A stretch of 64,000 bases of DNA. Origin: Chryseobacterium salivictor (GTDB lineage Bacteria; Bacteroidota; Bacteroidia; Flavobacteriales; Weeksellaceae). Under the pieces are notes generated by a model. That model had not been told where the DNA came from and searched no databases. It saw only the letters and a program-made list of their open reading frames with translations. This document shows positions 22,898-24,491 of this stretch, piece after piece; the first letter of the stretch is position 1, and the number at the start of each line of letters is the position of its first letter. The stretch covers positions 310,001-374,000 of the forward strand of contig NZ_CP037954.1 in NCBI RefSeq assembly GCF_004359195.1, read 5' to 3'. The position numbers and the translations under genes are program-made.

Positions 22898-22928
22898 TTT
22901 GGAGATTCAAAATATTTATATAGATTTG
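22898..22928 (+). promoter_or_regulatory. Promoter of the SAM-riboswitch leader and metY
   Basis: TTTG (22898-22901), a 19-base spacer, and TAGATTTG (22921-22928) match the Bacteroidota consensus TTTG-N19-TAnnTTTG. Transcription should start near 22934, about 25 bases before the riboswitch aptamer. Confidence 0.8.
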
Positions 22929-22958
22929 CAGTCTTAAACGTTCTTTAAAACATCGCAA

Positions 22959-23060
22959 CTTATTCAGAAAAGTGGAGGGAATTGACCCTATGAAACTTTG
23001 GCAACCTGTTTAGAAATAAATAAGGTGCAAAATTCAACTCGCCAGCGCGGGAAAGATAAG
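22959..23060 (+). promoter_or_regulatory. SAM-I (S-box) riboswitch aptamer
   Basis: The region carries the S-box landmarks in order: CTTATT..AGAAAAGTGGAGGGA, the GACCCTATGAAAC segment, TTTGGCAACC, AAGGTGCAAAATTC, and the closing GATAAG that pairs with the 5' CTTATT/ACTTAT strand as P1. S-box RNAs bind S-adenosylmethionine and turn off methionine/sulfur genes when SAM is plentiful. It sits directly upstream of metY, which fits. Two downstream hairpins form the likely expression platform. Confidence 0.9.
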
Positions 23061-23100
23061 TCAGATATTAAAATTTAGAAAATAGAATTTCTATATATTA

Positions 23101-23147
23101 AGCTCTTTTGATTTGTCGAAAGAGCTTTTTTTATGCTCTTTCGACAA
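23101..23147 (+). terminator. Riboswitch terminator overlapping a second hairpin
   Basis: Hairpin 1 is AGCTCTTT (23101-23108) with AAAGAGCT (23119-23126), followed by seven Ts: an intrinsic terminator. Its 3' arm is also part of TTGTCGAAAGAGC (23113-23125), which pairs perfectly over 13 bp with GCTCTTTCGACAA (23135-23147). That second hairpin places the T-run in its loop. The two are mutually exclusive, as expected for a terminator/antiterminator pair. Confidence 0.75.
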
Positions 23148-23192
23148 GTATTTTCAAAGGATAAGTTGCAAAATTTAAAACAAATTAATTAA

Positions 23193-24491
<1,299 letters not shown>

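Follow-up and report, generated by a model that had tools for sequence, protein, structure and literature searches.

Terminator-type riboswitches of the SAM-I (S box) class are known, e.g., from Bacillus subtilis. For Bacteroidota, in which Shine-Dalgarno use is weak, riboswitch control of translation is poorly described. Terminator platforms, sequestor/antisequestor platforms and the exchange of P1 strands have all been described already (PMC2258182, PMC10907184, PMC7270179). The SAM-I riboswitch of the met operon of Xanthomonas campestris acts primarily on translation and involves a Shine-Dalgarno (SD) sequence and a tRNA-binding anti-SD strand (PMC7270179). In dual expression platforms, the ribosome binding site (RBS) is part of the terminator hairpin and the terminator is located at most 10 nt from the start codon (PMC2258182). 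In strand-exchange riboswitches, a switching sequence of the first helix has mutually exclusive partners (PMC10907184).

In this study, we analyzed the leader of metY in Chryseobacterium salivictor, in which both strands of the aptamer helix P1 have an alternative partner, and compared it with SAM-I leaders of related and more distant bacteria.

Materials and methods

The window, i.e., the whole stretch of DNA analyzed, comprises 64,000 nt of C. salivictor (GCF_004359195.1, NZ_CP037954.1, positions 310,001–374,000, forward strand); coordinates below are window positions unless a leader (L) or genome (G) is named. For the comparison, 61 leaders of the family were used, which precede metY, metX, metH, a cystathionine-synthase-like gene, genes for TonB-dependent receptors and others. 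Segments of the aptamer region were scored for unusual complementarity to the downstream leader.

Results

The metY gene (23196–24491, + strand) encodes an O-acetylhomoserine aminocarboxypropyltransferase/cysteine synthase of 431 aa (TIGR01326, 682.7 bits). Upstream of it, an aptamer was found at 22957–23062 (+), which belongs to the SAM-I (S box) class with an Rfam score of 75.6 bits for RF00162 against a gathering score of 44.4; its position upstream of a methionine-pathway gene also agrees with this assignment. A probable promoter of the flavobacterial type, TTTG-N19-TAGATTTG, was located at 22898–22928 (+) by a pattern match for which about 3.6 chance matches are expected per window. TAGATTTG is kept at the same place in the metY leaders of the genus, and the match fits TTTG...TANNTTTG, which we take to be the flavobacterial promoter consensus. 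Between metY and the rRNA operon, there is a gene for a Mutator-family transposase (PF00872; 24862–26082).

The aptamer is followed by an intrinsic terminator with a stem of 12 pairs and a U-run (23100–23134, +), which is conserved in metY leaders (0.89). The sequence GATAAGTC (23055–23062, +) contains the P1 3′ strand and also is the anti-terminator strand: its partner within the terminator is GATTTGTC, and this pairing and P1 exclude each other, which is the standard anti-terminator arrangement. The relatives compared have a similar anti-terminator duplex, with GACTTGTC in most of them. The strand CGAAAGAGC takes part in two hairpins (23100–23148), namely that of the terminator and a longer one formed with GCTCTTTCGACAA further downstream; the latter requires read-through and would disrupt the terminator stem. 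A dual platform with the RBS in the terminator hairpin was not found in this leader; the U-run ends near 23134 and the metY ATG begins at 23196. Hiding of a Shine-Dalgarno sequence was considered and rejected, as AAAGGA (23156–23161) precedes the ATG by 34 bases and is not conserved among the relatives.

The initial annotation had reported a complementarity between the 5′ side of the aptamer and the region close to metY, and both letters and coordinates were confirmed: GCAACTTAT (22955–22963) is the exact reverse complement of ATAAGTTGC (23161–23169), with 26 bases separating position 23169 from the ATG at 23196. The helix grows to 11 pairs by U22964·G23160 and C22965–G23159 (one G·U) and then connects the aptamer 5′ edge GCAACTTATTC (22955–22965, +), which includes the P1 5′ strand, with GGATAAGTTGC (23159–23169, +), here called the competitor. 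The aptamer's own P1 is shorter, as had been pointed out, with 7 pairs including one U·G between 22958–22964 and 23055–23061. Upon unconstrained folding of the read-through leader, the 11-bp helix was obtained with a probability of about 0.97–0.98 per pair. The fold with the aptamer imposed was 5.8 kcal/mol less stable, ligand energy excluded, in a calculation that leaves out the aptamer pseudoknot, SAM, co-transcriptional folding and the ribosome. The polymerase reaches the competitor only past the terminator; the competitor therefore cannot influence termination, and any effect it has would be on read-through RNA.

When the downstream part of the leader was randomized by dinucleotide shuffling, at least 9 Watson-Crick pairs with the 15-base 5′ edge of the aptamer occurred in 28 of 4000 cases, and at least 11 pairs with G·U allowed, for the same query, in 5 of 4000. 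If both 9-mers may lie anywhere in this A+T-rich leader, a match was present in 224 of 500 shuffles, and therefore the observation in the single sequence is weak and suggestive only. The comparative data make the predicted 11-bp helix secure.

Both strands of the helix are unchanged in the window and in six other metY leaders of the genus. The competitor is also present in metY leaders of seven further genera of the family (g7, g11, g12, g20, g24, g27, g32), 80–96 nt past the aptamer and downstream of the terminator, which makes eight genera including that of the window. A ninth genus, g28, is better excluded, with a match (L168) that is shorter, differently placed and equalled in 12 of 200 shuffles. 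For L167, a more distant leader from g22, no significant competitor was found. In the g9 metY leaders, the terminator is present and the competitor absent, so that the translational stage proposed below would be dispensable in g9. Conservation of the downstream 9-mer, suggested in the initial annotation as a check, was clearly seen: in metY leaders, the mean column identity of the competitor is 0.88 versus 0.46 for the upstream and 0.67 for the downstream flank, and the distance from the competitor to the metY ATG is nearly constant (38–47 nt).

Covariation between the strands, the second check suggested there, is present and modest, with compensatory or G·U changes that keep the helix in relatives. 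Pair 10 changes from U·G to C–G or U–A, and pair 1 from G–C to A–U in L161; only the inner 8 pairs remain in g24 and g32. For 11 distinct sequences, 90.1% of the cells pair versus 83.6% in shuffles (none of 500 as high), and this drops to 27–47% when the strands are slid against each other. Cells changed on both sides number 6 versus 2.5 expected (5 of 500 shuffles as high). Counting instead the pairs in which both sides have changed gives a value that is not exceptional (156 of 500 shuffles), and four of the 11 pairs are invariant; covariation is therefore supportive, not overwhelming.

The same layout was detected before other genes. The aptamer 5′ edge (−8 to +14) is captured by a downstream strand in 50 of the 61 family leaders, against 1–3 for four control segments, and a shorter segment (−6 to +9) in 41 of 61 from 21 genera, against 0–5 for eight other segments; as the set contains related sequences, these counts are not independent events. 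Other leaders of Flavobacteriales outside the family gave 16 of 41 for the 5′ edge (controls 0–3). For leaders outside the order, the 5′ edge was captured in 5 of 63, no more than the controls, and the shorter segment was likewise not enriched. Capture of the 5′ edge is thus restricted to Flavobacteriales within the sampled leaders, which rules out a feature of all Bacteroidota SAM-I leaders. The downstream strand differs by gene type, being GGATAAGTTGC for metY, GTAGCATTTTCAA for metX and metH, and TTTCTTGATGACAT for metH of another family, and hence this is one design in several sequences and not one repeat.

SAM riboswitches also precede genes for TonB-dependent receptors in several genera (L125, L172, L173, L175, L177, L188, L204), where L125 was called by its Plug domain (PF07715; aptamer at about 1500–1603) and the others by N-terminal sequence only. 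The leaders of these genes contain TTTCTTGAT-like strands complementary to ATCAAGAAA of the aptamer. The presence of SAM riboswitches before these receptor genes suggests SAM-controlled uptake of a methionine-related compound. Also, SAM riboswitches were observed in pairs of opposite orientation, separated by a few hundred bases and apparently controlling divergent genes (G056 C1 2381419–2382024; G122 C3 129114–129757; G096 C5 18169–18650). A metY relative in Ignavibacteria has a SAM-I/IV riboswitch (RF01725; L055 1172–1276) upstream instead of SAM-I.

Besides the aptamer 5′ edge, the competitor strand can pair with the start region of the gene. This was the case in 14 of 18 metX and 4 of 9 metH leaders (at most 10 of 200 shuffles), and only 5 of 14 metY leaders have a significant duplex of this kind. 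In L193, a 13-base pairing of CATTTTCAAAATT with AATTTTGAAAATG includes the ATG, and TTGAAAATG is found again in the aptamer edge; the corresponding partners in L179 are GTAGCATTTT and AAAATGCTAC. When P1 was imposed, the probability that the start codon is unpaired fell from 0.88 to 0.00 (L193), 0.82 to 0.00 (L179), 0.59 to 0.00 (L194), 0.69 to 0.00 (L246) and, for the metY leader L169, from 0.83 to 0.24. In most folds tried, forcing P1 thus occludes the modelled start codon. Exceptions are the metX of the genome that contains the window, L197 and L207, whose starts are occluded even without the P1 constraint, and L156 and L158, in which the AUG changes little when P1 is imposed. Longer duplexes between competitor and start at metY are found in L156, L158, L160 and L169. 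A sequestor/antisequestor arrangement is clear in most metX leaders, in many metH leaders and in the metY leader L169. The metX of several genera seems to begin with TTG, a codon inside the potential pairing partner of the competitor (L002 497–1447, minus strand; also L181, L199, L201, L207, L211).

In the window, TAAGTTGC (23162–23169) of the competitor pairs with GCAATTTA (23200–23207, +), which covers metY codons 2–5, by 8 pairs with a probability of about 0.95 when the aptamer is imposed. This duplex is not significant alone, being equalled by 23 of 200 shuffles, and the metY AUG changes little between the two folds; the start-sequestering half is therefore inferred here mainly from relatives.

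Discussion

From these data we propose that metY is controlled by a two-stage OFF switch, in which termination is followed by a translational strand exchange with the aptamer 5′ strand as a decoy of the start region. We assign this reading, based on comparison and folding models, a probability of about two thirds. In the first stage, P1 would hold GATAAGTC when SAM is bound and the terminator would form, while without SAM GATAAGTC would pair with GATTTGTC in the terminator and the polymerase would read through. In the second stage, GGATAAGTTGC of the read-through RNA would choose between the aptamer 5′ edge (11 pairs) and the metY start. Without SAM, the 5′ edge would hold GGATAAGTTGC as a decoy, so that translation could begin; upon binding of SAM, P1 would retake the 5′ edge and the freed GGATAAGTTGC would cover metY codons 2–5. 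SAM would thus drive the exchange and access of the ribosome would be the controlled step, in the order given, which probably applies to metY of the window as well.

An extra expression platform beyond the usual terminator, as envisaged in the initial annotation, is supported as a prediction by the conserved 9-mer, by the helix kept through changes and by the recurrence of the design before other genes; the terminator with its anti-terminator is present and conserved in addition. The long-range helix between the aptamer 5′ edge and the start region would serve as such a platform. To this we add that the helix, formed in the ON state, most likely releases the start region and does not block it, given that the competitor, once freed, is itself able to pair with the start.

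The main rival explanation is a competitor which captures the P1 5′ strand in read-through RNA without control of ribosome access at metY; the aptamer would be kept from re-forming and binding SAM, and the ON decision would be fixed. The strong and conserved 5′-strand helix at metY and the place of the competitor downstream of the terminator agree with this, as does the weak pairing of competitor and start in most metY leaders. However, re-binding of SAM after read-through would matter only given a later translational step, in metX and metH a strand of this type does pair with the start codon, and long competitor:start duplexes do exist at metY in four leaders. We consider such a mere fixation unlikely and prefer the decoy exchange.

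A role in mRNA stability, with protection from nucleases through pairing of the transcript 5′ end to the region upstream of the gene, would suit a helix with one strand close to where the transcript probably begins, but leaves both the match of the competitor to the start codon of metX and metH and the near-constant spacing to the metY ATG unexplained, and appears quite improbable. Lower still we rank a functionless complementarity, arising by chance in an A+T-rich leader or left over from a duplicated P1 strand. A single 9-mer match is indeed not rare in shuffles of the leader; nevertheless, the conservation peak at the competitor, the pairing kept through changes and the enrichment confined to the aptamer 5′ edge and to Flavobacteriales lead us to reject chance on comparative grounds. 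The core of the competitor is similar to the P1 3′ strand, but the two vary independently: g12 has GATAGGTC in P1 and GATAAGTTG in the competitor, and L158 the reverse, so that a mere duplicate is not favored.

Beyond metY, we lean slightly towards the view that SAM-I leaders of Flavobacteriales share a translational platform, in which the aptamer 5′ strand mimics the gene start and decoys an anti-start strand. At metY, this platform would be stacked behind an intrinsic terminator, and thus both P1 strands would be re-used in separate decisions. To the question of how riboswitches control translation in Bacteroidota, the conserved layout offers an answer that is direct and testable and that covers SAM-I throughout one order; at metY, it suggests a two-stage switch acting on transcription first and on translation second. 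Platform classification which seeks terminators and otherwise defaults to translation control (PMC2258182) would miss it. In the open-licence literature, we found no report of the P1 5′ strand serving as a decoy of the start region throughout an order.

Compared with known systems, the metY leader shares the RF00162 aptamer, the intrinsic terminator and the anti-terminator using the P1 3′ strand with terminator-type SAM-I riboswitches, but has a second conserved partner, for the P1 5′ strand, between terminator and start codon. As in X. campestris (PMC7270179), there is a SAM-I aptamer, and in our model a platform hairpin would likewise hide the start region in the SAM-bound state; in contrast, a terminator precedes it and the proposed anti-start strand complements the aptamer 5′ edge. 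With dual platforms (PMC2258182), it would have in common that one riboswitch controls both transcription and translation, whereas terminator and start-sequestering strand are separate here and about 60 nt lie between the end of the U-run and the ATG. Like strand-exchange riboswitches (PMC10907184), it has a sequence in the first helix that switches between partners excluding each other; unlike in these, each P1 strand has an alternative partner of its own and the 5′ strand resembles the gene start.
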